Shown here: positions 33,085-49,040 of the stretch, piece after piece
How the letters are laid out: every line of letters begins with the position of its first letter
How positions within the stretch are numbered: the first letter of the stretch is position 1
Assembly (NCBI RefSeq): GCF_006874465.1
Contig: NZ_VIRL01000006.1
Location: forward strand, 124,001 to 188,000
Reading direction: 5' to 3'
Origin: Microbispora bryophytorum
Lineage (GTDB): Bacteria > Actinomycetota > Actinomycetes > Streptosporangiales > Streptosporangiaceae
DNA length: 64,000 nucleotides
The notes under the pieces: generated by a model
Told to the model about the DNA's origin: nothing
The model's input: only the letters and a program-made list of their open reading frames with translations
The model's database searches: none
Program-made: the position numbers and the translations under genes

Positions 33085-35502
33085 TCAGCTGCGCGACCAC
33101 CTCTGGTTCGCGCCGCCGTTGCACGTCCAGATCACCAGCTGCGTGCCGTTGGCGGTGCCGCCGCCATAGGCGTCCAGGCACTTGTTCGAGCCGACTCCGA
33201 CGATCGTGCCGTCGGAGTTGAGCGTCCACTGCTGGTTGGTGCCGCCGTTGCAGTCGTAGATGTCGACCCGGGTCCCGTCCGCCGTGCCCTGTCCGTAGGC
33301 GTCCAGGCACTTGGTGCCGTAGACCATCAGCTGCTTGGACGGCGTGAGGGTCCAGGTCTGGTTGGCGCCGCTGTTGCAGTCCCAGAGCGCGACCTGGGTG
33401 CCGTTGGTCTGGGACTGGCTGGGGACGTCGACGCAGCGGCCGGAGGCCTGGCCCCTGATGGGGCCGACGCTGGTGCCGCCGTTTCCGCCGCCGATCGGGG
33501 TGATGGAGAGGTTGTCGAACATGTCGGTCTGGTATCCGACCACTCCGAGCCCGACCTGTCCGGTGAAGTAGGAGTTGTCGGTCACCGAGCCGAGCGCGGC
33601 GCCGTCGAGGGTGGCGCTGATCTGGTTGCCCGAGAAGCTGAGCGAGATCGTGTGCCAGGTGTTGGTCCCGAGCGAGCTCCGGGAGCCCGAGGTGAGGGTG
33701 CTCACCGTGCCGGACGTGGTGCTCTTGGCGATCGACCAGGCGCCGGAGTTGTTCAGCCGCAACTGGTAGGCGGCCTGGTGGCTCTGCGGGCGTGACTGCG
33801 TGTTCGCCCGCCCGAGCAGCGTGATGGTGCCGCCCTGCTGGAAGTTGACGTCCACGCTGACCTTGTAGTTGCTCCAGGACGGGTCGCCGACCAGGCCGAA
33901 GGCGTCGCTGTCGTCCTGCCACTCGATCGGACGCACGGGGGTCACCTGCTGCAGGCACTGACCGGACCGGCCGCCGGCGCAGGGCCGGACCTCGAAGGAT
34001 CCCTGCATGTCGGAGAAGTACTTGGCCTCGGTGCGGGAGGCGTAGGCGTCGAAGTCGTCGGAGTACGGCAGAGACAGCGGCGCACTCGCCGGTCCGGCCG
34101 CCGTGCCCTTGCCCTGGCCGGTGGTCGTGGTCAGCGAGTAGATCCGGTTCGGCTGCATGGTGAGCGAGTAGGAGCCGTTGCTGGGGGTGATGTCCGGCTG
34201 CCTGACGAACCAGTCGGCGGGGTTGTTCGAGCCGAGGTTGGTGGACCACACGTGCACGGTCCCGGTGCTCAGCCCGCCTGTCACGTTGACGTTCACGGTC
34301 TGCGTGCTCGTCGACGTGCTGGTCTCGTAGATGGTCGAGTAGTCGGTGTTGTTCGTGGACTTCAGGGAGATGTAGCTGCCGTTGCTCCGGTTCCCGCCGA
34401 GGTATCCGCTCGCGGAGCCGGTGAGGAAGCGCCAGCCCGGCTGGGTGAACTGGGCGACCTGGGCGTTCGCCCACAGGCTGCGGCCCAGCTGGTAGGCGCC
34501 CGACCACGGCGAGTTGGCGACCGCCAGGGCGGTGGTGTTGAAGGGCAGGTTCGGGTAGAGCGCGGCCACCAGCGGCCAGTTGACGAAGCCCGTCATCTGG
34601 CCGTCGAGGTATCCGCGGGTGACGCTGCGGATGTAGGGGGCCGAGCCGCTGATGTAGTCCTGCGATCCGAACTCGCTGTTCCAGATCGGCTTGCCGGTGG
34701 CCACGGCGTTCGCGCTGGAGGGACACGAGGTGGCGTCGCCCAGGTAGCCGCACAGGTAGTGCGACCCGACCACGCCGACCGCGGCCTTGAACGCCGGGTC
34801 GCTCAGCATGTCGTCCGCGGTCGACAGGCCGAAGCTGTCGTCCCCGACGATCTGCACGTTGCCGTAGCCGTTGGAGTCGAGGGCCGACCGGAGGTTCTTG
34901 TACCAGGTCTTGTTGTGCCCGCGCTCGTTCCATCCGCCGATGTAGCTGACCGTCAGGCCGTGCTGCTTGGCGCAGTTGAGCCAGGAGATGTCGTAGTCGA
35001 TCATGTCCTGGGACCAGAAGTTCCCGCCGCCGATCCAGCCCGGCGCGGTCCACGGCAGCGCGATCAGCTTGATGTTCGGGTTGCGCGCCACCGCCTGCTC
35101 GCCCAGCCAGAACTCGTAGCCGACGTTGCAGTTGATGTCACCGCGGGTGTGCTGGATGCTGGGCTCGGAGCCGTCGGTGGAGTTGGCGTCACCGCCGATC
35201 TCCAGTTTCAGCAACTGCACCGCCGCGCCGTACCCGGGCTTGAAGAGGTAGTCCAGGATCTGGGAGCGCTGCGTCTCCGGGTAGTCGATGAGCAGCCGGG
35301 AGTTGCCGCCGCCGCCGCTGATCGCCCCCACCCCGTCGAACGTGCGTCCCGTCGAGCCGCCGTTCACCGTGATGGTCGTCGTGGCCGCCTGGGCCGCCGG
35401 CGCGGTGACCACGACGGCGCCGGCGCCGGTCACGGCCGCTGCGACCGTGGCCATCAGGATGCGGACCCATTTTCTGTCGCCGACTGGTCGACGTCTGCGC
35501 AT
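33085..35502 (-). CDS. secreted GH59 galactocerebrosidase-like glycosidase with ricin-type lectin domain
   Basis: Encodes 805 aa. A signal peptide (about 1-40, ending APAAQA) precedes a GH59 catalytic domain that tracks animal galactosylceramidase closely: TFDGVGAISGGGGNSRLL, SQILDYLFKPGYGA, LEIGGD, then WNERG (acid/base Glu 193) and WNSEFGS (nucleophile Glu 277). A GALC-like beta-sandwich follows. A C-terminal ricin B/CBM13 trefoil (about 680-805) has three QxW signatures (NQTWTL, NQQWTL, NQRWSR). It probably releases galactose from extracellular galactosides or galactolipids while the lectin domain holds the polymer; the exact substrate is inference. GGAGGT lies just upstream of the ATG. 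Confidence 0.9.
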   Translation of the reverse strand: MRRRRPVGDRKWVRILMATVAAAVTGAGAVVVTAPAAQAATTTITVNGGSTGRTFDGVGAISGGGGNSRLLIDYPETQRSQILDYLFKPGYGAAVQLLKLEIGGDANSTDGSEPSIQHTRGDINCNVGYEFWLGEQAVARNPNIKLIALPWTAPGWIGGGNFWSQDMIDYDISWLNCAKQHGLTVSYIGGWNERGHNKTWYKNLRSALDSNGYGNVQIVGDDSFGLSTADDMLSDPAFKAAVGVVGSHYLCGYLGDATSCPSSANAVATGKPIWNSEFGSQDYISGSAPYIRSVTRGYLDGQMTGFVNWPLVAALYPNLPFNTTALAVANSPWSGAYQLGRSLWANAQVAQFTQPGWRFLTGSASGYLGGNRSNGSYISLKSTNNTDYSTIYETSTSTSTQTVNVNVTGGLSTGTVHVWSTNLGSNNPADWFVRQPDITPSNGSYSLTMQPNRIYSLTTTTGQGKGTAAGPASAPLSLPYSDDFDAYASRTEAKYFSDMQGSFEVRPCAGGRSGQCLQQVTPVRPIEWQDDSDAFGLVGDPSWSNYKVSVDVNFQQGGTITLLGRANTQSRPQSHQAAYQLRLNNSGAWSIAKSTTSGTVSTLTSGSRSSLGTNTWHTISLSFSGNQISATLDGAALGSVTDNSYFTGQVGLGVVGYQTDMFDNLSITPIGGGNGGTSVGPIRGQASGRCVDVPSQSQTNGTQVALWDCNSGANQTWTLTPSKQLMVYGTKCLDAYGQGTADGTRVDIYDCNGGTNQQWTLNSDGTIVGVGSNKCLDAYGGGTANGTQLVIWTCNGGANQRWSRS

Positions 35503-35858
35503 GCCGGACCTCCGGAGTGCCCGTGGGGGGATGAGTGACGGGCGGTTCACCGGCCCTGCCGGATCCAGAGCGGTTGGCCCCAGCACGCTGGCTCGATACC
35601 GTCCGTCATGTTTTCTGTTGAAAGCCGTTTGAAAATGTCAGAGCAGTTGGGGCATGTCAAGACATGGTCAGACGGGAAAGATGGCGTGTGAACACGGCTG
35701 AACTGGCGGGCAGCGGAAACGTGCGTGCCGGCCGTCGCCTGCCATGAAAGTTTCAGGCGTGCGCGTACGTTCGGTTGCGCTCGGTTATGGCAGAGATTGT
35801 TGGAACGCGAGCCGTCGAGGTTGCCGCTGACGATCGGCGGACCTTCGTCCGGCCGTTC
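35503..35858. promoter_or_regulatory. regulatory gap upstream of the GH59 gene
   Basis: A gene-free stretch of 356 bp, AT-richer than its surroundings. Near the GH59 start it holds a pseudo-palindrome TTGAAAGCCGTTTGAAA (about 35618) and the inverted repeat CATGTC-AA-GACATG (35653-35666), both possible operators for sugar-responsive control. At the far end CGGAC-CTTC-GTCCG (35838-35851) could terminate the acetyltransferase gene. I see no gene. Confidence 0.4.
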
Positions 35859-37793: not shown

Positions 37794-38091
37794 GCGTGCA
37801 CGGTCGCTTTCGTTATGCCTGCGAGCTGCGAAGACAGCAATAGGTGGCGGTTAGGTAATCGATGCCCCCGCTGGCCAGGCGTAACGTGCTTTTCCACGGA
37901 GTGGATAGATGTGGGGCGCCTCTGCGGGATGTAGACCTGGTTTGCTCGGTCGCGGCGATGCTTGCACCATGGGCGTGGCTTACCTGGAAGAATTGGTGAG
38001 ACCGCTAGGGTGAATACATCAATGCGGTTAACCGGATCGAGAGCAAGAGGAAACCGCGCCAGCCGGAGGGATCGGCGCGAGCGGAGGCGTG
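37794..38091. promoter_or_regulatory. leader region of the secretion/conjugation-like operon
   Basis: About 300 bp without a gene before the first operon gene, AT-richer than average. It has the perfect palindrome CGGTTAACCG (38025-38034) 57 bp before the ATG, and a TAGGGT hexamer (about 38006-38011) that could be a -10 box. No clear -35, origin or att-like repeat is seen. Confidence 0.35.
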
Positions 38092-39102
38092 ATGGCTCGC
38101 AGGTCAGACGTCCAGCAGGATCCGCGGATCGCTGGCGACCCTGACCCGTACCCATTGGAAGGCTTCGAGGCGACGAGCGCCGCGCACGGCACTGCCCCCC
38201 GCCGCAGAGGCTGGAGTGGCGGTGGAGGCCGCTGGCTCGTCTGGACCGGGCGGGTCATCCTCTGGGCACTGATCGTCGTCATCCTGGTCAACGGCATACG
38301 CGCCCCGTTGGAACGGCTGGCGGGAGACGATCAGCCCACCACGACGCCGACCGGCACGGTCACCTCCGGATTCCCGGCGACGCAGGCGGCGGCCTTCGCC
38401 AACCAGTTCGCGGCGGTCTACCTCAACTACGACGCGGCCACCCCCCAGCAGCGCGCGGAACGGCTGAAGTCGTTCCTGCCGGAAGGCGCCGACGAGCAGT
38501 TCGGCTGGAACGGGTACGGGCGGATGTCGGCGGGGGCCTTCCAGTTCGCCGGGATCGACCTGATCGACGACCACAACGCCCGGGTGACCGTGACGTACCA
38601 GTCGGGGGGCAGCCGCGGTCTGCTGTCCGTGCCGGTCTATTACGACAACGGCGGGTTCGTGGTCTCGGCCCAGCCGGCTCTGCTGCCCGCCCCGGGCCCG
38701 GCGGGCCTGCCGCAGCTCCCGGACCCCGACCGCGACTCCGCCACCGAAGCCGAACTGCGTCCCCAGCTCGAAGGCTTCTTCAAGGCGTACGCCGCGGGCA
38801 ACCAAGTGGACCTGCAGCGCTACGTCGCGAGCGGGGTGACCGTCAACGGGTTCAACGGGGAGTTCACCCTCGCCGAACTGAAGGACGTCGTGGTGCCGCC
38901 GGACGGCGCCGACAGCAGGAAGGTCACGGCGGTGGTCGTGTGGGCGGTGGCGTCCGGACAGTCGACGGCGGTGGCGAGCCCGTCGCAGGATCCGGCGGCG
39001 CAGCCCGCCGGTCTTGAGCAGGCCTACCAGTTAACGATTGAAAAGCAGGGCGGCAAGTGGTTCGTCAGGGACATCCAAGGTGCGAACCGGTCCGTGGGGT
39101 AG
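38092..39102 (+). CDS. TcpC/VirB8-like conjugal transfer protein 1
   Basis: Encodes 336 aa: a short basic cytoplasmic N-terminus, one transmembrane helix (about 47-68, WTGRVILWALIVVILVNGI), then two NTF2-like extracytoplasmic domains (about 95-190 and 215-330), the layout of TcpC/VirB8 assembly-factor proteins. ATG 38092 follows GGAGG; a GTG one codon earlier is too close to it. It heads a tight co-oriented operon. A second protein of this type is encoded at 47242. In Gram-positive conjugation systems TcpC localises at the membrane and contacts the channel and ATPase. Confidence 0.8.
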   Translation: MARRSDVQQDPRIAGDPDPYPLEGFEATSAAHGTAPRRRGWSGGGGRWLVWTGRVILWALIVVILVNGIRAPLERLAGDDQPTTTPTGTVTSGFPATQAAAFANQFAAVYLNYDAATPQQRAERLKSFLPEGADEQFGWNGYGRMSAGAFQFAGIDLIDDHNARVTVTYQSGGSRGLLSVPVYYDNGGFVVSAQPALLPAPGPAGLPQLPDPDRDSATEAELRPQLEGFFKAYAAGNQVDLQRYVASGVTVNGFNGEFTLAELKDVVVPPDGADSRKVTAVVVWAVASGQSTAVASPSQDPAAQPAGLEQAYQLTIEKQGGKWFVRDIQGANRSVG

Positions 39103-39152
39103 CGCATGCCCGGCAAAGACATCGCTGATCCATACCCCCGGGAGGGCGAGAG

Positions 39153-39440
39153 TTGATACTGAAGACCATCGCGGACCACGTCCTTGATCTTGCCGCGCCG
39201 TCACCGGCGCCGACGACGGGCATCAACACCGAAGGTCTCGCCGACTTCCTCCGAAAGTTCTTCGCTCCGCTCTTCCTCGCGGTCGTCTCCGTCGTGGCGA
39301 TCTTCTTCCTCTTCACCCGCGAGATCACCAGGTTCGTGCAGTTCATCATCCTGGCGATCGCGATCGGCGTGATCTTCTACGTTCCCAACATCATCGAGGT
39401 GACGGCGAAGGCGATCGCGGGCGCACTTGGCATCAAGTGA
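39153..39440 (+). CDS. small TcpD-like membrane protein
   Basis: Encodes 95 aa from TTG 39153, preceded by GGAGGGCGAG. Two hydrophobic helices (about 36-58 and 61-85) flank a short charged turn (TREITRF). The position, between a TcpC-like and a TcpE-like gene, is where small TcpD/ORF-type membrane subunits occur in Tn916/pCW3-like transfer modules. The assignment rests on size, topology and position. Confidence 0.65.
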   Translation: MILKTIADHVLDLAAPSPAPTTGINTEGLADFLRKFFAPLFLAVVSVVAIFFLFTREITRFVQFIILAIAIGVIFYVPNIIEVTAKAIAGALGIK

Positions 39441-39462
39441 TCGGGCGGAGAGGAGGTTCGGG

Positions 39463-42225
39463 GTGGATCTGCCCACATATACCAATATCTGGCGTATTGA
39501 GAAGCGGCTGTACAAGCTGTACGACCTACGACTGCCAATGCCGCTTCCGGTCGTCTGGATCGGTGTGTTCGTGGGTGTCTCCGTGCCGTGGTGGGTCTTC
39601 CTCTACCTGATCGGACTGCCGTTCGCGGCACCCTGGCACGTCATCTACCTCGTTCCTCCGGGCGTGCTCACCTGGCTCTCCACCCGTCCCGTCATCGAGA
39701 GCAAGCGCCTCACCGAACTGCTCCAGTCGCAGCTCCGCTACATGAGCGAGCCGCGGACATGGTGCCGCATGGCCCCGTTCGACGAGCCGGACGAGGTCGC
39801 CTTGACGGCGCGTGTCTGGCGGACCACGCCACCGGCCGCGGCGGCGCACGCCAGAGCGACGCGCAGGGCGCGCCGCGCGGTCTCGGTCAAGGTGCCCGTC
39901 CCGAAGGTCTCCAGGACCGGCGCACGGGCGGTCTCGCCCGCCGCCGCGCGGGTGGGCGCGCACCAGGTGGACCCCTCGCGAGTCGTACGCCCGGCCGTGG
40001 CGGCCGCGGCGGCGGCCGCCGCACCGGTCACCGCACCGCTCACCGACACACCCCCCGCCACTGCCTCCCGCAGCGGTGCCGCCGCCCGGGCCGGCGCCAC
40101 CGGTGAGCGTGTCTTCCGCCTCGCGGAACCGCCGGCAGCGCCCGCGCCGCCGGCACCGCCCGCACCGCTCGCACTGTCGCTGCCGCCCGCGCACGCGGCG
40201 GAGCCGCAGACCGGTCTCGGCACCGGCCCGGATCGCGAACACGAGCCGCACGAGGGACACGGCGAGGGACACAGCGGGGGACATGACGCCCACGAGAAGA
40301 GCCATGAGAGCCCTGTGCAGGTCCCGGTGCAGGTCCCTGTGCGGCAGGAGCCCCCGGCCGCTCCCTCCGAGGCTTCGGAGGATGCCGCGGTCCCGCCCAT
40401 CGGCACCGAGACGCTGCGCCGCCTGCGCCGGCTCGCCGCTTCGGCCGAACCCCACGCCGTACGGCCGTCCGATGTCGTCTCCTCCATCGATCCGACCACG
40501 GTAGAGCCCGCGCACGAGGAGCGTCCTCGCGACGAGCGTGCGCGCGACGCCGAGCCCGGCGGGGAGAGCGCAGACACCGCAGAGAACGCAGGCACCACGG
40601 AGAACGCAGGCACCACGGAGAACGCAGGGGCGCCGCAGGGGTCCGAGGCGGAGTCCGCGCCCGGGGAGCCCGCCGACGACGTGGACCGGGAGAACACGGC
40701 GCAGCGGGACGCCGCGGCCCTTGAGCAGCATCGCAAGGGCCGCCCGCCGAGGCTCGTGCGCCCCCGCCTGCCGGGCGGCACAGGGGACGAGCCGGCGGCC
40801 TGGGCGGCCTCGGAGGACACGGAGCCGGACGAGGACGCACGGGCCGGACGCGCCGGACGGGCCGCGACGGACGTCACCACCGAGCACGCACCGGCGGCCA
40901 CCGCCTCGGTCACCCCCGCCTCGGTCGCCCCCGCAGCTTCCGATGCTTCCGCGCAGGACACGCCCACCTGGATCAGGCCGTCCCGCGCGCCGCAGGAGGT
41001 GCCGGACGACGCCGCTTCCGCTGCGTCCCCTGCCCCGCACCCTGCTGAGCCCCCTGCCCCGCACCCCGCCATCCACCCTGTTGCGCCCCTTGCCGCGTAT
41101 CCCGCGCGCGAGGGGACGCATGCGCCCGGGTCCAGGCCGTACGAGAGCGCCAGGGGCAAGGGGGACGTGACGCCGCCCCCGGCCGGTCCGGCGGGAGTGT
41201 CGATCCGAGCCGTGCCCTCGGGGCCCCGCGCGACCGGCCCGGCCGGTCCGGCCCGGCCGTCGCTGCCCGCTCCGGGAACGGCAGTCCCCGGCAGGCCGGC
41301 GCACGAGGAGCCGCCGCGGCTGCGCCGCGTCGAGGCCGTGGTCGGGCGCGACACCTCGGGCGGCTGGCGGCGCCTGGCGCAGGTCGTCGTGGGCGGCAGC
41401 CGTACGGACGGCATGGAGGTCGACGAGGCCCGGACCCGCATCCCGCTCACCACGAGCAGGCGGATCATGGTGCTCGGCTGCACGGGGGGCGCCGGGCAGA
41501 CCACCACGGCGTTAATGCTGGGCCACACGCTGGCCCGTCACCGCGATGACCGTGTGCTCGCGCTCGACGCGAACACCGGAGAGGACACGCTCACGACGAG
41601 GATCGCCGCCGAATCCCCCGAGACGCTGAGCTCGCTGATCGAGAGCGCGGAAGAGGTGACCGGCTACCTCGGCATGCGGGCGTACACCACGCGCTGCGAA
41701 TCAGGACTGGAGGTCGTCGGGGCGGACACCGACGACCGGGTGACGCAGCGCCTGGCGGAACGCGCGTTCCTGGCCGACTGGCGCAGGACCCTCGCCGCGC
41801 TCGACCGGCACTACCGGCTTACCGTGATCGACCCCGCGGCTGCGCTGGCGGCCCGGCTCCTGCCGTACGCCGACCAGCTCGTGCTGGTCGCCCCCGCGAG
41901 CGAGGACGCCTCCGAGGCGGTGGCGATGACCTACGAGTGGCTCGACGGGCACGGCTGCTCCGACCTGCGACGCCGCGCCGTGATGGTGATCAACGGCGTG
42001 AGCCGTCGCAGCCTCCCCGACGTGGAGCAGGCCGAGGCGGTGGCCAGCGGCCGCTGCCGGGCGATCGTCCGGGTGCCCTGGGAGGACGAGCTGGCCCCCG
42101 GGCGGCCGGGACCGGTCGACGTCAATCACCTCCGAATGGGCGGCCGCAGGGCGTACGTTGCGCTTGCGGGAGTGATCGTGAGCGGCCTGGCGGCTGTCCA
42201 GGCCAAGCAGGAGGTGGCCAGATGA
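39463..42225 (+). CDS. TcpE-like membrane protein fused to a MinD/ParA-like domain
   Basis: Encodes 920 aa from GTG 39463 (AGGAGG upstream). Residues 1-110 form a TcpE domain (DLPTYTNIWRIEKRLYKLYD, two helices, then ESKRLTELLQSQLRYM). About 110-650 is a low-complexity Ala/Pro/Glu region with His-rich (GHGEGHSGGHDAHEK) and ENAGTT repeats. About 665-915 is a MinD/ParA-like domain: TGGAGQTTTA in the P-loop position, LALDAN, TVIDPA, VMVINGVSR. Both lysines of a deviant Walker A (KGGxGKTT) are replaced, so ATP hydrolysis is doubtful. It may link the membrane channel to a cytosolic partner. Confidence 0.85.
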   Translation: MDLPTYTNIWRIEKRLYKLYDLRLPMPLPVVWIGVFVGVSVPWWVFLYLIGLPFAAPWHVIYLVPPGVLTWLSTRPVIESKRLTELLQSQLRYMSEPRTWCRMAPFDEPDEVALTARVWRTTPPAAAAHARATRRARRAVSVKVPVPKVSRTGARAVSPAAARVGAHQVDPSRVVRPAVAAAAAAAAPVTAPLTDTPPATASRSGAAARAGATGERVFRLAEPPAAPAPPAPPAPLALSLPPAHAAEPQTGLGTGPDREHEPHEGHGEGHSGGHDAHEKSHESPVQVPVQVPVRQEPPAAPSEASEDAAVPPIGTETLRRLRRLAASAEPHAVRPSDVVSSIDPTTVEPAHEERPRDERARDAEPGGESADTAENAGTTENAGTTENAGAPQGSEAESAPGEPADDVDRENTAQRDAAALEQHRKGRPPRLVRPRLPGGTGDEPAAWAASEDTEPDEDARAGRAGRAATDVTTEHAPAATASVTPASVAPAASDASAQDTPTWIRPSRAPQEVPDDAASAASPAPHPAEPPAPHPAIHPVAPLAAYPAREGTHAPGSRPYESARGKGDVTPPPAGPAGVSIRAVPSGPRATGPAGPARPSLPAPGTAVPGRPAHEEPPRLRRVEAVVGRDTSGGWRRLAQVVVGGSRTDGMEVDEARTRIPLTTSRRIMVLGCTGGAGQTTTALMLGHTLARHRDDRVLALDANTGEDTLTTRIAAESPETLSSLIESAEEVTGYLGMRAYTTRCESGLEVVGADTDDRVTQRLAERAFLADWRRTLAALDRHYRLTVIDPAAALAARLLPYADQLVLVAPASEDASEAVAMTYEWLDGHGCSDLRRRAVMVINGVSRRSLPDVEQAEAVASGRCRAIVRVPWEDELAPGRPGPVDVNHLRMGGRRAYVALAGVIVSGLAAVQAKQEVAR

Positions 42226-42255
42226 GGGGCGAGCGAGGAAGCTGGTGAGAGGTCG

Positions 42256-44733
42256 ATGAGCAGGGCGCGCAGTCGCCTCGCGGTGCGTTACTTCGACGAT
42301 CGCGTTCTCCTCACCGACTCGGCGGCGTGGGCCTACTTCCGGCTGCCGACGGTGAGCTACGAGTTCCTCACCCCCGAGGAGCGCGAGGCGCTGGCCACCA
42401 ACGTCACGATCGCGCTGGCGGCGATCAGGATGCCGGACGCCGAGGTGCACCTGCGGATCGCGCACCGGGCCTACCCGGCGGCGGAGTGGGCGATGGCGCT
42501 CAACTCGACCTCCGACGAGGGCCAGGGCTGGCGGGAGTACCTGGAGGAGATGTACCGCCACGTCTGGGCCAAGGACTTCTGGAGCAAGGAGATCTACCTC
42601 GGCGTACGGCTCGGGCCGCGCGGCGCACAGCTCGGCACCGGCGTGCTGGCCCAGCTCTTCGGCTTCTACCAGCGCAGCGAGAAGGCCCTCGGCATCGAGG
42701 ACGACCACGTGCCGGACAAGGAGATCACCCGGTGGACCGAGGCCGCCGAGCGGCTCGGCCGGGCCCTGGCCTCCAGCGCGTTGTACGCCCGCCACGCCAC
42801 CTCTTCGGAGATCGCCTGGCTGTTCCAGCACGCGGCGGCGGGCGGCCTCGGCGAGCCGCTGGCCTCGGCCACGCCGCGCCGCAGGTGGGGCAAGGGCGAG
42901 ATCGAGGCGCTGGTCGAGGGGCAGATCCACAACGGCCGGTCCCTGCTGAGGATCGAGCAGCCGGCCGGAGACTCCTACACCGCGCACCTGTCGTTCGCCC
43001 GGTTCCCCGATCTCATGCCGTTCCCCGACGGCGAGCCGTGGCTGCACTTCGCCGACCAGTTGCCGTTCCCGGTGGAGATTTCCAGCCGGATGCGGCTGAT
43101 CCCCCCGGTCAGGGCGAGCAAGGATGTGGCGCGCAAGCTGGCCCACGCCCGCGACATGGACATCCACATCCGTGAGGCGGGCGCGGAGGCGCCGCTCGCG
43201 CTGGCCGAGCAGATCGACGCCGCCCGCATGCTGGAGCACGGCATCACCAAGGAACGGCTGCCGTTCGTGTACGGCTGGCATCGGCTGAGCGTCAGCGCGC
43301 CGACCGAGGAGATGTGCGTCCAGCGGGTCGAGGCCGTCGTGGAGCACTACCGCGACCTCGGCATCGACGTCGTCAACTCCACCGGCGACCAGTTCTCGCT
43401 GTTCTGCGAGGCCCTGCCGGGGGAGCGGCTGCGGGTCAACGCGTACGCCCAGCGGCAGCCGCTGCGCACGATCGCGGGCGGCATGGCCACCGCGACCGTC
43501 GAGCTCGGCGACCGGGTGGACGAGTCGAACGCCGGATGGATCGGGCCGTACGTCGGGGAGACGCTGGGGCGGGCGCGCAGCATCGTGCACTTCGACCCGC
43601 TCGTCGCGGCGGCGCGCAACCGCCCGACCGCCATCGCCATCACCGGAGAGCCGGGCGGCGGCAAGACCACGCTCGCGCTGCTGCTGATCTACCAGATGGC
43701 GCTGCGCGGCGTCACGATCGCGGTCATCGACCCCAAGGGCGACGCCGAGTCGCTCGTACGGCTGCTGCGCAACCGGGGCCGCAAGGCCAGGATCATCCCG
43801 CTGGGGTCGGCCGCGCCGGGCCTGCTCGATCCGTTCTCGTTCGGCGACGACATCGCGACGAAGAAGACGATGGCGACCGAGACCCTGCGGCTGCTGCTGC
43901 CGAGGATGTCGGAGGAGCGCGAGTCCGCCATGATCCAGGCGGTCGCCGCGGTCTCCAACGAGCCCGACCCCTCGCTGGGCAAGGTGGTGGACCACCTGGA
44001 GCAGTCCACCGACCCGGCGTCCAAGAACCTCGGCGCCGTGCTGCGGTCGATGTCGGAGATGCACCTGGCCAGGCTGTGCTTCGACGCCTCGGGCGGCGAG
44101 CAGATCGACACCGAGGGCTGGACGACCGTGTTCACGCTGGGCGGCCTCACGCTGCCCGATGTAATGACGGTCAGGGACGACTACTCCTACGAGCAGCGGC
44201 TGTCGGTCGCGCTGCTCTATCTGGTGTCGCAGTTCGCGCGCCGCCTGATGAACGGGCTCGACCGGCGCACGCCGAAGGCGATCTTCCTCGACGAGGCGTG
44301 GGCGATCACGTCCACCCCCGAGGGCGCCAAGCTCGTGCCGGAGGTCTCCCGGATGGGCCGCTCGCGCAACACGGCGCTCGTCCTGGTATCGCAGAACGCC
44401 GGTGACCTGCTCAACGAGCAGGTGACCAACTGTCTGTCGTCGGTCTTCGCGTTCCGTTCGACGGAACGCGTGGAGGTCGGGCACGTGATGGAGCTCCTCG
44501 GCGTGGATCCGTCGGAGGAGCACAAGGCGGTGCTGCGCTCCCTGGGCAACGGGGAGTGCGTCTTCCGGGATCTGGACGGCCGGGCCGGCCGTATCGGGGT
44601 GGACCTTATCTCGGAGGAACTGCTGCGCTGGCTTGACACCAATCCGACACACGACAAACCAAACGAGAACGTGCATGATCTTCTTGATGGGGGCTCCGGT
44701 CGGTCGGGGGTCGCGCAGGAGGTGCGATCGTGA
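42256..44733 (+). CDS. VirB4/ConE-like secretion ATPase
   Basis: Encodes 825 aa. An N-terminal VirB4-type region (about 1-420) leads to a RecA-like motor: Walker A GEPGGGKTT (about 464-472), VIDPKGDAESL, Walker B IFLDEAW (about 675), and SQNAGDLLNEQVTN (motor motif). VirB4 proteins energise assembly and transport in type IV secretion. All catalytic motifs are intact, unlike the MinD-like domain encoded just upstream. It overlaps the next gene by 4 bp (GTGA). No VirD4/TcpA coupling protein lies nearby, so this would be the operon's only functional motor. Confidence 0.92.
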   Translation: MSRARSRLAVRYFDDRVLLTDSAAWAYFRLPTVSYEFLTPEEREALATNVTIALAAIRMPDAEVHLRIAHRAYPAAEWAMALNSTSDEGQGWREYLEEMYRHVWAKDFWSKEIYLGVRLGPRGAQLGTGVLAQLFGFYQRSEKALGIEDDHVPDKEITRWTEAAERLGRALASSALYARHATSSEIAWLFQHAAAGGLGEPLASATPRRRWGKGEIEALVEGQIHNGRSLLRIEQPAGDSYTAHLSFARFPDLMPFPDGEPWLHFADQLPFPVEISSRMRLIPPVRASKDVARKLAHARDMDIHIREAGAEAPLALAEQIDAARMLEHGITKERLPFVYGWHRLSVSAPTEEMCVQRVEAVVEHYRDLGIDVVNSTGDQFSLFCEALPGERLRVNAYAQRQPLRTIAGGMATATVELGDRVDESNAGWIGPYVGETLGRARSIVHFDPLVAAARNRPTAIAITGEPGGGKTTLALLLIYQMALRGVTIAVIDPKGDAESLVRLLRNRGRKARIIPLGSAAPGLLDPFSFGDDIATKKTMATETLRLLLPRMSEERESAMIQAVAAVSNEPDPSLGKVVDHLEQSTDPASKNLGAVLRSMSEMHLARLCFDASGGEQIDTEGWTTVFTLGGLTLPDVMTVRDDYSYEQRLSVALLYLVSQFARRLMNGLDRRTPKAIFLDEAWAITSTPEGAKLVPEVSRMGRSRNTALVLVSQNAGDLLNEQVTNCLSSVFAFRSTERVEVGHVMELLGVDPSEEHKAVLRSLGNGECVFRDLDGRAGRIGVDLISEELLRWLDTNPTHDKPNENVHDLLDGGSGRSGVAQEVRS

Positions 44734-47222
44734 GCGTGCGCAGGAACGGTCCGAGGGGCCGCGCCAAGGAGGGTGCCAGACGCGGCAGGAGGATACGCCG
44801 GACTCTGGCGCTGCTGTTCGTCGCGTTCGCGGCGTTCGTGACGCTGCCGCTGATCTTCCCGTCGGATACGGCGAGCGCGGTCGGGCCGTGTGACCTGTCG
44901 CCGGCCCTCGCCCCGGAGATCGTGGGCGGCGGCGTCGACGGGCTGGTCCAGCCGCCGGCCGCGGACGTGACCGCGACCGCGGGCCAGAACACCGAGCAGG
45001 CGCCGAAGCCGCCGGTGACCAACTACGAGCGGTACGGCATGGCCGGCCAGTTCTGGCACACCTACGACCTCGGGTGTTCCGACGTCACGGCCGTGCTCGG
45101 CAACGCGTGGGCCAACACGGTCTTCTCGTGGGCCAAGGCCGTCGACCGGCTGACGATCAGCACCTACCAGGCGGCGGCCACCGAGGGCCCGCTGCAGCCC
45201 ATCAAGGACGTCGCCGACGAGGTCGTCACCAACCTCGCCAACGCGATGTACTGGCCGTACCTGCGGCCGATCGTCATCCTCGGCGCGATCTGGCTGGCGT
45301 GGTACGGACTGATCCGCAAGCGCGCGACGACGACCACCGAGGGCGTCATCTGGATGGTCCTCGCCGTCACGGTCGCCATCTGGTTCTTCAGCCGGCCGGG
45401 TGACTTCACCGGCCTCGGCAAGACCGTGACCGACAAGACCGGCGAGATCGTGAACTCGGCGTTCTCCGGGCTGCCGGGGGCGGGCGGCGCGTCCTGCCTG
45501 CCGATGAAGGAGACCGCGCCGGGCGAGGTGCCGAGCGCGCCCACCGCGGGCGGCTACGGCCGCCAGGGCACGCCCGGCGTGGAGCAGAACGCGGACGCGC
45601 TGTGGTCGGTCCTGGTCTGCAAGCCGTGGCTGATGGGTGAGTTCGGCACGGCCGACCCCGACGCCGGTCTCGTGAAGGGTCTGGGCGCCAAGCTGCTCAA
45701 CCTCCAGGCCATCGACGCCGCCGAGCAGGCCGCCGATCAGACACCGGCCTCCGACTCCCACCAGCAGCGGTTCGAGGAGGAGGTCGCCAAGCCGATGCAG
45801 AGCACCCCGGCGTACTTCCTGTTCCAGGGCAAGGACTGGACCAGCCGCCTGGGCATCTCGATCGGCGCGTTCATCGCGGCGATGGTCGCGGGTCTGCTCA
45901 TCTTCCTCGTCGCGGTGTCGCTGCTCGTCCTGAAGGTCGGTTTCCTGCTGCTGCTGATGCTCGGGCCGGTCTTCCTGCTGATCGGCGTGCATCCGGGCTC
46001 CGGCCGCATCATCGCCATGCGCTGGGTGGAGATGCTGGTCGGCACCCTGCTGCGCCAGGCGGTGCTGGCCCTGGTGCTGGGCATCCTCGTGTACGGCTAC
46101 GCGCTGATCATTTCGACCAGCCTGCCCTGGGGCATGCAGATCCTGTTCATGGCGCTGCTGACGATCGCGGTCTTCTTCTACAGACGGCCGTTCCAGCACC
46201 TGTTCGCCTCGATGGACGGGCACACGCTCACCACCCGGATGCTCGGCGAGGCCGCCAGCGCGCCGACCCTGTCGCGCGCGGCCAACGCGCTGCCGCCGGT
46301 CGCGGCGGCCCGGGCGGCCCGGTGGGGCCTGCGCAAGGCCGAGCCGGTCATCAGCGCGGCCGCGATGGCGACGGGCGCGGGCACGGCGGCCGCCGCGGCG
46401 GGGGTGGCACAGGGCCGCGTGCGCGGCGAGGAGGGCGCGGGCGGCGTGCCGGCCCAGGCCGGAGCGCGTGCGGGGGCCCAACCCGCGCCGCTCGACGCCG
46501 ACGCGCAGGGGGCCGGCCGCCGCAAGGCCGGGGTCACCGCGTCACGTCCCGGATCGGCCCCGCCGCTCAACCTGTCGGGGGTGCGGCCGGCCGGACCCGT
46601 ACGGGCGTCCACGCCGTCCGGCCCTGGCTCGCCCTCGCCGGCCCAGGTCGCGTCCGCCGCGGCGTCGTCGGGGAGCCCGGCGGGCCCGCCGCAGCGGGTC
46701 ACCGGCGCTTCGGCCGTGCCCGCGCCGTCCGCGGCATCGTCCGCCGCGCCGGCTGCCGCATCGTCCGGAGCGCCGTCCCGCGGCCGCGTGTCCGGGGGCG
46801 GCGGTTCCGGCGGCGGCTGGTTCAGCGGCAGGTCCGGCGGCTGGGCCTCCCGGCCGTCGTCCCCCAGGCCGTCCGGCGGAAGCTCCGGTGGGAGCTCGGG
46901 CGGCAGCTCGGGCGGGTTCTTCGGCGGTTCGCGCGGCTCCTCCGGCGGGTCCTCGAACAGGTCGTCCCGTGGTTCTTCAGGTGGCTCTTCGGGTGGTTCG
47001 TCCGGTGGCCTGTTCGGCGGATCGTCCCGGCGGGGCGACGGCGGCCGTTCCCGGCCCGCCCCGCCGCGTGACTCCGGGTCGTCCGGCGGCTCGTCGTCCA
47101 GCCGTCCGCGTTCGGAGCCGCCTCCGCTCTGGCTGCCGAGCAGGGGAGAGGGCACGCGCCGCGGCGGCGACGCGCCCACCCCGTTCTGGGCCAAGCCCGC
47201 CGACCGCGACTCCGGCGACTGA
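44730..47222 (+). CDS. VirB6/TrbL-like polytopic channel protein
   Basis: Encodes 830 aa. A basic N-terminus and signal-like helix (about 26-48) precede an extracytoplasmic part, then several helices (two near 180-225 and five to six between 370 and 490), as in VirB6/TrbL channel components. The cytoplasmic C-terminal 330 residues are low complexity: Ala/Pro-rich, then many SGGSSGG and SSRGSSGG repeats, ending in a Pro/Arg-rich tail. The family forms the inner-membrane pore. GTG start overlaps the VirB4 stop by 4 bp. Confidence 0.85.
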   Translation: MSVRRNGPRGRAKEGARRGRRIRRTLALLFVAFAAFVTLPLIFPSDTASAVGPCDLSPALAPEIVGGGVDGLVQPPAADVTATAGQNTEQAPKPPVTNYERYGMAGQFWHTYDLGCSDVTAVLGNAWANTVFSWAKAVDRLTISTYQAAATEGPLQPIKDVADEVVTNLANAMYWPYLRPIVILGAIWLAWYGLIRKRATTTTEGVIWMVLAVTVAIWFFSRPGDFTGLGKTVTDKTGEIVNSAFSGLPGAGGASCLPMKETAPGEVPSAPTAGGYGRQGTPGVEQNADALWSVLVCKPWLMGEFGTADPDAGLVKGLGAKLLNLQAIDAAEQAADQTPASDSHQQRFEEEVAKPMQSTPAYFLFQGKDWTSRLGISIGAFIAAMVAGLLIFLVAVSLLVLKVGFLLLLMLGPVFLLIGVHPGSGRIIAMRWVEMLVGTLLRQAVLALVLGILVYGYALIISTSLPWGMQILFMALLTIAVFFYRRPFQHLFASMDGHTLTTRMLGEAASAPTLSRAANALPPVAAARAARWGLRKAEPVISAAAMATGAGTAAAAAGVAQGRVRGEEGAGGVPAQAGARAGAQPAPLDADAQGAGRRKAGVTASRPGSAPPLNLSGVRPAGPVRASTPSGPGSPSPAQVASAAASSGSPAGPPQRVTGASAVPAPSAASSAAPAAASSGAPSRGRVSGGGGSGGGWFSGRSGGWASRPSSPRPSGGSSGGSSGGSSGGFFGGSRGSSGGSSNRSSRGSSGGSSGGSSGGLFGGSSRRGDGGRSRPAPPRDSGSSGGSSSSRPRSEPPPLWLPSRGEGTRRGGDAPTPFWAKPADRDSGD

Positions 47223-47241
47223 CGGGAATCTCCGCGCTGTC

Positions 47242-47892
47242 ATGAGAAGCCGAAACAGTGACCGGGGGAAGGGCCTCGCCTTCGCGGTGGCCGTCGTGGT
47301 GCTCGCCGCCGTCGGCGTCTACCTCACGATGAGCCCGCCGTCGAGCTCCTCCGCCGGGAGCGACGAGCAGACGAGGGAGCAGTCCGTCGTGGCCACCCCG
47401 CGGGCGACGGCCGCCGTCCGGGAGCCCAGCCCGGTGGCCACGACCCCCGGCGCCTTCGACGTGTACGCGTACCTGCCGCTGTCGAAGGAGGAGATCGGCG
47501 CGGCGGCCGACCTGGCGCGCCGGTTCACCGAGGCGTACGGCACCTTCTCCCCCGGCGAGGAGCCGGCGGCGCGGGCCGACCGGCTGAAGCGGTTCGCGAC
47601 CGACGAGTTCGCCGGCCAGCTCACCAGGACCGTCACCGATCCCGCGGTGGTGGAGCAGAACGAGACCGACCAGGTGACCTCCAAGGGGTCGGCGAAGGTG
47701 GCGACGATCCGCGACATGACGGCCGCCCAGGTGGTGTTCGTCGTCGACTCGGTTCGTCACGTGACCGACAGGAACGGCCAGAAGGACGTGCCCGAGCAGT
47801 TCGCGGTGACCGTGATCAAGGCGGGGACCGACTGGCGGGTGTACGACCTGCAGCTGGCCGACGCCGGTCAGGACGGGGACAGCTCGCCGTGA
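47242..47892 (+). CDS. TcpC/VirB8-like conjugal transfer protein 2
   Basis: Encodes 216 aa: one N-terminal helix (about 11-30, GLAFAVAVVVLAAVGVYL), a Ser/Thr/Pro linker, and a single NTF2-like domain (about 75-205, AADLARRFTEAYGTFSPGEEP...). It is shorter than the first TcpC-like protein and has only one such domain. The operon thus carries two unequal VirB8-like subunits. It overlaps the following hydrolase gene by 4 bp. Confidence 0.75.
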   Translation: MRSRNSDRGKGLAFAVAVVVLAAVGVYLTMSPPSSSSAGSDEQTREQSVVATPRATAAVREPSPVATTPGAFDVYAYLPLSKEEIGAAADLARRFTEAYGTFSPGEEPAARADRLKRFATDEFAGQLTRTVTDPAVVEQNETDQVTSKGSAKVATIRDMTAAQVVFVVDSVRHVTDRNGQKDVPEQFAVTVIKAGTDWRVYDLQLADAGQDGDSSP

Positions 47893-49040
47893 CCGCCCCG
47901 CCGCGCTTCACTTCGTCCGGCGCCTCGACGCGCGTCGTACGCAGGCTCGCGTCGGCGGGGCGGGACTGGCGGACGATCGCCGTGGTCCTCATCGTGATCG
48001 TTCCGGCCACGCTGTTCGGCTCGATCATCCTGATGACCCCCAGCCCGTCGATCCTCTTCGGCGGCGGCGCCGCCGAGAACTGCGCCGAGGCGGCCACGGG
48101 GGAGGCCGCGGCCGACGTCTCGCAGACGGCCGAGGGGGACATCCCGGACGACTACCTGGAGCTCTACAAGAAGGTCGGCAAGCAGATCGGCGTGCAGTGG
48201 AACGTGCTGGCCGCCATCGGCAAGCGGGAGACCAACCACGGCCGCTCGACGCTGCCGGGGGTGCGCAGCGGCACCAACTACGCGGGGGCCGCGGGGCCGA
48301 TGCAGTTCCTCATCAGCACCTGGGGCGGCCAGGCCAAGATGCGGATCGAGCCGGGCGTCAACGGCTACGCCTCCGACGGCGACGGGGACGGCTACGGCGA
48401 CGTCTACAACCCCGCGGACGCCATCCTCGGCGCGGCCAAGATGCTCAAGCGCAACGGCGCGCCCGACGACCTCAGAAGGGCGATCTTCGTCTACAACCGG
48501 GCCACCTGGTACGTCGACCAGGTGCTGGAGATCGCCAAGCGTTACGCGGCGACCGGGGACATCGCGGTGCCGGCCGAGGCCGACCCGGCCTGCGACTCCG
48601 GCTACGTCGACAGCGCCCCCGACGAGGTCGTACGCAAGATCATCGAGTACGCTCTGGCGCAGCGGGGCAAGCCGTACCGGTGGGGTGGCACGGGCCCCGA
48701 CGCCTTCGACTGCTCGGGGATCATCTACATGGCCTACCGCAACGCGGGGCTGACCATTCCCCGCACGACCTTCGGCCAGTGGCCCTTCGGCGCGAAGATC
48801 GAGGAGGGCCGGGAACAGCCCGGCGACCTCGTCTTCTTCAACGCCGGTCCGGGCACGGCCAAGGACAGTCCGGGGCATGTCGGGATGGTCGTGTCGCCCG
48901 GCAAGATGATCGAGGCACGCTGCACGCTGTGCGGGCCCATCAAAATCTCGACGTACCGCGACCGGCCCAACATCGTCGGTTTCACCCGGCCGCTGGAGAA
49001 CGAGACCGTCGTCGCGCAACTGAAGCGGGCGCAGACGTGA
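47889..49040 (+). CDS. bifunctional SLT lytic transglycosylase / NlpC-P60 endopeptidase
   Basis: Encodes 383 aa: one N-terminal membrane helix (about 27-50), a soluble lytic transglycosylase domain (about 85-215, catalytic Glu in GKRETNHG near 115, then GAAGPMQFL), and a C-terminal NlpC/P60 domain (about 255-365, Cys in DCSGII near 274, His in GHVGMV near 330). It resembles CwlT/Orf14 of Gram-positive conjugative elements, which open the wall locally for the transfer channel. Catalytic residues look intact. It overlaps both neighbours by 4 bp. Confidence 0.92.
   Translation: MTAPPRFTSSGASTRVVRRLASAGRDWRTIAVVLIVIVPATLFGSIILMTPSPSILFGGGAAENCAEAATGEAAADVSQTAEGDIPDDYLELYKKVGKQIGVQWNVLAAIGKRETNHGRSTLPGVRSGTNYAGAAGPMQFLISTWGGQAKMRIEPGVNGYASDGDGDGYGDVYNPADAILGAAKMLKRNGAPDDLRRAIFVYNRATWYVDQVLEIAKRYAATGDIAVPAEADPACDSGYVDSAPDEVVRKIIEYALAQRGKPYRWGGTGPDAFDCSGIIYMAYRNAGLTIPRTTFGQWPFGAKIEEGREQPGDLVFFNAGPGTAKDSPGHVGMVVSPGKMIEARCTLCGPIKISTYRDRPNIVGFTRPLENETVVAQLKRAQT

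Follow-up and report, generated by a model that had tools for sequence, protein, structure and literature searches.

Here we describe a gene of Microbispora bryophytorum that encodes a VirB3-like conjugation protein joined in one reading frame to a MinD/ParA-fold domain in which both characteristic P-loop lysines are replaced. The gene (39463-42225; 920 amino acids) lies in a 64,000 nucleotide stretch of contig NZ_VIRL01000006.1 (positions 124,001 to 188,000), referred to here as the window, and is part of a conjugation-type operon at 38089-49040; unless stated otherwise, all features are on the forward strand. We consider it rather probable, from comparison of the sequences, that the operon encodes a domesticated conjugation-type machine whose VirB3 carries the pseudo-ATPase as a nucleotide-independent docking domain. 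The parts are individually of known kind, and what appears to be new is the fusion of VirB3 to a conserved pseudo-ParA/MinD domain in a family-wide, probably domesticated machine. Such a locus or combination was not found described in a literature search of open-licence papers.

Architecture of the fusion gene

The frame starts with a GTG codon, directly preceded by the purine-rich sequence AGAGGAGG, and runs for 920 codons with zero internal stops. Its first 110 residues (39463-39792) form a TcpE domain, which was matched by the Pfam model PF12648 at residues 5-103 (76.1 bits against a cut-off of 29.9, E 3.2e-21) and thus belongs to the TcpE family. The initial annotation had called TcpE a channel protein; the family assignment stands, but the protein is better named a probable VirB3 homologue, as TcpE/ConC/OrfE are the probable VirB3 of Gram-positive MPF-FA systems (PMC12857230). 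An Ala/Pro-rich, fast evolving linker (39793-41364) leads to the C-terminal domain (41365-42222).

By sequence this second domain is degenerate, because the Pfam families CbiA and AAA_31 both matched at about residues 667-726 below their cut-offs. A domain profile gave only weak matches to solved structures, the best being VpsO (4e-6), followed by BceF and McdA-type chains. Its AlphaFold model, which has a predicted local distance difference test (pLDDT) score of 87.3 and a predicted template modelling score of 0.90, has a MinD-type fold. The best solved match in VIA-align was Soj (2bek; Z 23.4, root mean square deviation 2.8, 233 residues), with FleN and MinD structures within about one Z unit of it (Z 22-23).

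Residues 670-682 read V-L-G-C-T-G-G-A-G-Q-T-T-T, and in the degenerate P-loop GCTGGAGQ (672-679; 41476-41499) Thr674 and Gln679 occupy the lysine positions of KGGxGKT. Both the single-frame fusion and the lysine-free P-loop had been proposed in the initial annotation, and both were confirmed. It had also claimed that the MinD layout is kept. LALDAN and TVIDPA are indeed present, but the switch I motif D-A-N-T-G (702-706; 41566-41580) and the Walker B/switch II motif D-P-A-A-A (790-794; 41830-41844) differ from those of intact relatives at the fifth and the third residue, respectively. The linker had been described as about 550 low-complexity residues with His-rich and ENAGTT repeats. As cut here it has 524 residues (22% Ala, 16% Pro); the His-rich stretch was found, and ENAGTT occurs twice, with a third copy ending in AP, but this feature is local to this one sequence.

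Loss of the P-loop lysines in all fused copies examined

Homologues were recruited via the TcpE half alone, and the loop thus played no part in their selection. Gln was found at the position of the P-loop lysine in 39 of 39 sequences in an alignment of the window copy and 38 loci, and in all 59 family copies, from 60 loci, that had the C-terminal domain in view; the two sets overlap. The counts exclude one locus whose stretch was too short (L075) as well as those truncated at a contig end. Both halves were in one frame in 58 of the 59 copies in which both were in view, a share that is biased upward because those 60 loci were mostly picked with long frames. Ten short frames were fetched deliberately. 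Eight of them stop at the contig end and two are broken in the linker, and these two still keep the Gln-type loop; further short frames in the homologue lists were left out of the frame counts. Taken together, and including the window, 62 copies had Gln in 62 cases, a lysine at either site in none, and one frame in 59. In three copies (L060, L336 and L339) the linker frame is broken and both end domains are kept, which might reflect a sequencing error, decay or a split gene. Among 80 named copies, the closest of which are from Microbispora, Gln was present in all 80, but these were excluded as evidence for the loop because they were found partly with the GGAGQ pattern.

The initial annotation had named two outcomes that would speak against it, namely an intact loop in most homologues and, in close relatives, separate halves with a frame error in the window copy. 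The first is excluded for the copies seen. As to the second, separate genes do exist on two Nocardiopsis plasmids, though not via a frame error, and the open frame here and in 58 of 59 copies (mostly long-frame picks) led us to reject a frame error at the fusion.

To compare individual sites, 60 fused and 36 intact sequences were placed in one alignment. The intact set came from a search with one paralogue of the M. bryophytorum genome as the query and a whole-protein search of plasmids, and contains separate or differently extended MinD-like proteins; for two of the 36 (L006 and L007) the frame was located by KGGVGKTT itself. The signature lysine was Lys in 36/36 intact proteins and Thr, Ala or Ser in 60/60 fused ones, and the P-loop lysine was Lys in 36/36 and Gln in 60/60. 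The deviant Walker A motif of ParA/MinD ATPases is defined by two lysines (PMC6328274), and none of the 60 fused domains has it. The fifth position of switch I was Asp in 36/36 intact sequences, in contrast to Gly (59) or Ser (1) in the fused set, and the third residue of Walker B was Gly in 36/36 versus Ala in 60/60. The Walker B motif as a whole was D-x-G-T-G in 35 of the 36 intact sequences, the remaining one having Pro for Thr, and D-x-A-A/P-x in the fused ones. Cys673 and Asn-Gly-Val-Ser at 844-847 were invariant (60/60) in the fused set only; Trp873 was also invariant there, yet it was found in 6 of the 36 intact proteins too. In a phylogenetic tree the fused domains formed one clade with a support of 100/100 and a long stem.

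These changes argue that the domain very probably does not work as an ATPase. A rival view is that it is an atypical ATPase, with a Gln-type P-loop that binds nucleotide in an unusual way and serves as a slow switch or sensor. Precedents could be seen in McdA, which has an unusually high ATPase activity without the signature lysine (PMC6328274), and in TadZ, whose atypical ATPase domain binds ATP (PMC13170226). In addition, the majority of the loop glycines, the first switch I Asp and the Walker B Asp are invariant in the 60 fused copies or have a single exception, and the model retains the P-loop fold at high confidence. However, McdA keeps its P-loop lysine, whereas here both lysines are gone, together with the switch I Asp and the Gly-x-Gly of Walker B (both 36/36 in the intact set). 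Furthermore, the exchange of a nucleotide-site Lys for Gln in the related MipZ reduces nucleotide affinity (PMC6315104). We regard an atypical ATPase as unlikely, and a pseudo-ATPase, with both lysines lost in every copy and switch I and Walker B changed, as the best reading, in agreement with the initial annotation.

Selection on the domain and the linker

The ratios of nonsynonymous to synonymous substitution rates were estimated by simple Nei-Gojobori counting in nine comparisons with named Microbispora and Planotetraspora loci. They were 0-0.22 for TcpE, 0.05-0.19 for the pseudo-MinD domain, 0.06-0.11 for VirB4 and 0.46-0.67 for the linker. The dead domain is under strong purifying constraint, somewhat weaker than that on the motor, and the linker is not.

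It could be argued that the MinD half is no more than an anchor, in which the C-terminal helix forms a membrane patch and the remainder is an inert spacer. The model does finish in a long helix (258-285), and linker length varies, from 339 to 1731 residues among the 54 linkers compared. But conservation extends over the whole domain, with invariant core and loop positions, which is more than an inert spacer needs, and we consider this explanation improbable.

In part of the family the linker is not just a spacer. The motif LDHGTG(E) was observed in two to six copies in 26 of the 54 linkers, all 26 among L058-L076 and L201-L212, which represent one part of the family and do not include the window copy. 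Six-residue words of comparable make-up were shared by at most three shuffled linkers. A search with this pattern in 22 genomes gave 56 matches, 42 of them in the fusion gene by position and 14 elsewhere, compared to 5 with the reversed control. LNYFGF and HAAPWDL were seen as single motifs in linkers.

Distribution and chromosomal position

Of 250 genomes of the Streptosporangiaceae, a family that in the genome taxonomy also includes Nocardiopsis and Thermobifida, 241 contain the TcpE domain; they represent 66 of 68 genera, and all but a few have a single match. In a class-wide sample at an E value of 1e-10 it was present in 44 of 393 genomes, all inside the family. None of about 348 genomes of that sample counted as outside the family had it, 329 of these being taken as outside from the kinship order of the list; the family genome G003 was also without. 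The Pfam TcpE model at 1e-4 matched 18 of 196 genomes, again all in the family, and among 14 control genomes it matched Bacillus subtilis. In a third sample, VirB4 at 1e-60 was detected in all family genomes (25/25), among them G003, and outside the family in two genomes with 31% identity. Viral contigs yielded no relatives.

The operon follows ychF in the same setting in 10/10 genomes and in Nonomuraea gerenzanensis (11/11), and in 12/12 additional genomes ychF precedes it on the same strand at a distance of 1.6 to 33 kb, giving 23 of 23 genomes with this synteny. The patchy distribution typical of a conjugative type IV secretion system (T4SS) on a mobile element, or of an integrative and conjugative element, was not observed. 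Family-wide presence and the conserved site after ychF indicate a vertically inherited chromosomal locus, and we are highly confident that the cluster from TcpC to the NlpC/P60 hydrolase is a vertically fixed machine.

A mobile-element reading was rejected on the basis of the synteny beside ychF. A more specific form of it, that the operon is a remnant or resident conjugative element with a decaying ATPase half, would account for the conjugation type of the recognised parts and for the existence of plasmid relatives. It is very improbable, given the position beside ychF in 23/23 genomes, the near-universal presence in the family, the strong purifying constraint under which both VirB4 and the dead domain evolve, the intact Walker A of VirB4, and the fact that neither an integrase nor a relaxase was recognised among the scanned proteins.

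The operon and its neighbourhood

The fusion gene is preceded by two genes. The first encodes a TcpC/VirB8-like protein (38089-39102; PF12642, E 5.4e-18, over the cut-off), which was found in the same place in 11/11 loci. The second encodes a TcpD-like small membrane protein of 95 amino acids (39153-39440), which is named by position; its only Pfam match, LptF/LptG, was below the cut-off. Homologues of it, 67-95% identical, are located upstream of the fusion in 11/11 loci, and a 67% identical homologue adjoins the separate MinD gene of the two Nocardiopsis plasmids.

Downstream of the fusion follows the VirB4/TcpF motor (42256-44733; PF12846, E 4.1e-68; NF052333, E 2.9e-72, below its cut-off), the Walker A motif of which, GEPGGGKT at residue 464, is intact. 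It is followed by a VirB6/TrbL-like membrane protein (44730-47222; PF04610, E 5.1e-9, over the cut-off; NF046089 below its cut-off) and by a second TcpC/VirB8-like protein (47242-47892), for which the start codon is unsure and the PF12642 match (E 0.0011) is below the cut-off, but the position is conserved; a search of solved structures gave no match to it. The last gene encodes a cell-wall hydrolase with SLT and NlpC/P60 domains (47889-49040; PF00877, E 2.1e-20; PF13406, E 2.8e-6), which is VirB1-like. VirB4, VirB6, VirB8, VirB3 and VirB1-like parts are assembled in one cluster, as in a conjugative T4SS.

Housekeeping genes (glpX, xseA, ispH, rmuC and ychF) flank the operon on the left, and genes for flavoproteins and signalling proteins on the right. 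The interval from ychF to the operon also holds, on the reverse strand (33085-35586), a gene for a GH59 galactocerebrosidase-like protein that has a ricin-type lectin domain; matches to it were absent from the 11 compared loci. Pfam scans of window proteins (sets of 8, 10 and 10) and of 17 open reading frames picked downstream in four relatives, two of these frames being the operon's own, recognised no relaxase, coupling protein or integrase; the scan covers the submitted frames, and unrecognised types could escape it. The TrwC relaxase was present in 17 of 61 family genomes and absent from the M. bryophytorum genome. No tRNA genes were found within the window and no promoter was found in a promoter scan, while five terminator-like sites compare with a mean of 2.7 after shuffling.

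Plasmid relatives and intact MinD paralogues

Two Nocardiopsis plasmids carry the machine in an unfused form (L097, 10534-21039; L098, 14559-25054). Their VirB4 proteins matched at 74% and 71%, and they encode a separate TcpE of 169 and 158 residues, respectively, and a separate MinD-like protein with an intact KGGVGKTT loop. The plasmid VirB4 grouped with the chromosomal VirB4 of one genus, g47, with a support of 97/100; this genus is presumably Nocardiopsis. The TcpE of the N. exhalans plasmid is also nearest to g47 (74-75%), and for the TcpE of strain MT53 the closest was another genus (70%). In the ychF tree g47 lies well inside the family, and its placement as sister to the rest was rejected (p 0.01 in the approximately unbiased (AU) test). 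We did not accept the plasmid form as a simple ancestor, considering this result and the grouping with g47. These results suggest that the machine moved from the chromosome to the plasmids, shed the dead domain and gained a live MinD, but a rooted alternative for VirB4 was not rejected (AU test, p 0.075).

An intact MinD as a general partner of T4SSs was not borne out, as T4SS genes were annotated beside it in only 3 of 8 plasmid contexts (yes in L002, L097 and L098; no in L003, L004, L303, L304 and L305; annotation within about 9 kb, or 11-16 kb for the two Nocardiopsis plasmids). The M. bryophytorum genome itself encodes two intact MinD-like proteins with KGGVGKTT loops, on contigs C48 and C49 (L221, 9146-10126; L222, 9220-11739). 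One of them has 839 amino acids with a long N-terminal extension, and one is encoded near a selB-like gene. The class sample had relatives of these paralogues in 48 of its 98 genomes.

MinD and ParA proteins function as dimers. The dead domain might be the fixed half of such a dimer and pair with an intact MinD-like paralogue, whose ATP cycle would then control or place the machine. The two paralogues of M. bryophytorum are suitable candidates, and all 8 family genomes searched contain, apart from the fused copy, one or more matches with a better score, with the loops checked in part. However, such paralogues are also widespread in genomes from other families, in which the fusion was not detected (48/98 overall), so that their presence is not specific, and in M. 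bryophytorum they reside on contigs other than that of the operon. A mixed dimer of this kind, which we judge rather unlikely, would be a special case of docking and overlaps with that reading.

Discussion

Conjugation machines usually belong to mobile elements. With TcpE/ConC/OrfE of pCW3, ICEBs1 and ICESt3 the present system shares the domain (PF12648), an adjoining virB4 gene and an MPF-FA-type operon. VirB3 proteins are small (10-15 kDa) and separate (PMC12857230), in contrast to the protein described here, which has a C-terminal pseudo-ATPase fused to it and is encoded at a fixed chromosomal locus. With Soj, FleN/FlhG, MinD and VirC1 the second domain has the ParA/MinD fold in common (Z 22-23), but all 60 copies compared lack both P-loop lysines as well as the Asp of switch I and the Gly of Walker B that its nearest relatives have, and the domain is covalently joined to VirB3. 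VirC1- and ParA-like proteins accompany other T4SSs (PMC9905601).

The nearest working analogy is TadZ/CpaE of the Tad pili, a MinD-family protein at a secretion motor. CpaE, which has a MinD fold, was modelled as a ring around the CpaF motor and is needed to localise the secretin (PMC13170226). TadZ differs in that it has an atypical receiver domain and binds ATP (PMC13170226), whereas the loop of the fusion is without lysine. Where TadZ has its receiver, the fusion has the low-complexity linker, and no match to a receiver family was found in it with Pfam at E values up to 0.1, although an atypical receiver could escape such a search.

Two chromosomal systems also come to mind. The Ced and Ted machines of hyperthermophilic archaea are domesticated conjugation machines, and the authors of a 2023 paper knew of no report of domestication for DNA transfer outside them (PMC9905601). 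According to the same paper, Ted loci commonly hold a MinD/ParA gene, and a dedicated relaxosome was not proposed. These systems are archaeal and their MinD-family gene is separate. The second system is cmdABCDEF of Streptomyces coelicolor (SCO4126-4131), which is likewise chromosomal and encodes a VirB4-like motor and membrane proteins; it is likened here by description, and a TcpE match outside the family was absent from the class samples. Some cmd genes resemble conjugation genes of SLP2, and cmd loss disturbs sporulation and chromosome segregation, while it had no significant effect on the transfer of an SLP2-derived plasmid (PMC2782261).

Several points weigh against a domesticated machine with a nucleotide-independent docking domain. 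All 96 aligned sequences (60/60 fused) retain the first Asp of switch I and that of Walker B, and a Gln at the Lys position lowers nucleotide binding, yet some binding may persist. Two membrane helices and a VirB3-like structure are expected of the TcpE family; the TcpE model reached a pLDDT of 48, and a sequence search for solved TcpE relatives gave none, hence the membrane topology is a prediction from the sequence. The 60 loci were mostly chosen for long frames, and the linker frame is broken in 3 of 62 copies. Nine of 250 family genomes are without a TcpE match, including G003, which has VirB4. Lastly, the open reading frames of the flanks were scanned in part, TrwC was the only relaxase family sought genome-wide, and FtsK-type coupling proteins are universal in actinobacteria, so one encoded elsewhere could serve the machine.

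Nevertheless, we favor the view that the MinD/ParA-fold domain, which a long linker joins to the VirB3-like TcpE, has lost its nucleotide-dependent function. Without the key residues for ATP binding and splitting, the domain is probably a docking piece rather than an enzyme; taken by itself, we give the proposal that it is a docking or scaffold piece about even odds. Both ends of TcpE are predicted to lie inside the cell, which would put the domain in the cytoplasm next to VirB4. Lacking an ATP cycle, it would present an unchanging docking surface by which each channel copy recruits or holds a partner. Candidate partners are VirB4, one of the cell's own intact MinD-like paralogues, and a polar or septal protein. 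Positioning of the VirB4 motor, as the initial annotation suggested, is a plausible candidate role; that the domain positions the machine is, in our estimate, less likely than not. The machine may be a T4SS domesticated for a role in the cell, which by analogy to cmd could lie in hyphal development or sporulation, or alternatively in the translocation of DNA or protein without a dedicated relaxosome.

A broader scenario can tentatively be put forward. The family would have domesticated a conjugation machine as part of its core, possibly as a developmental organelle, and would have welded a ParA/MinD domain to VirB3 and switched its ATPase off, and the machine of the Nocardiopsis plasmids would have re-emerged from it, without the dead domain and with a separate, intact MinD. 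If this is true, the activity of the MinD partner tracks mobility, which would be a natural experiment on the role of ParA-type proteins for T4SSs, and the chromosomal and plasmid forms make a clean comparison of inactive and active versions available. For the family, a conjugation-type apparatus with a pseudo-ATPase in its VirB3 looks like a near-universal chromosomal fixture of a large group of actinobacteria, and it gives insight, independent of nucleotide, into how proteins of the MinD family may dock onto the motors of secretion systems.

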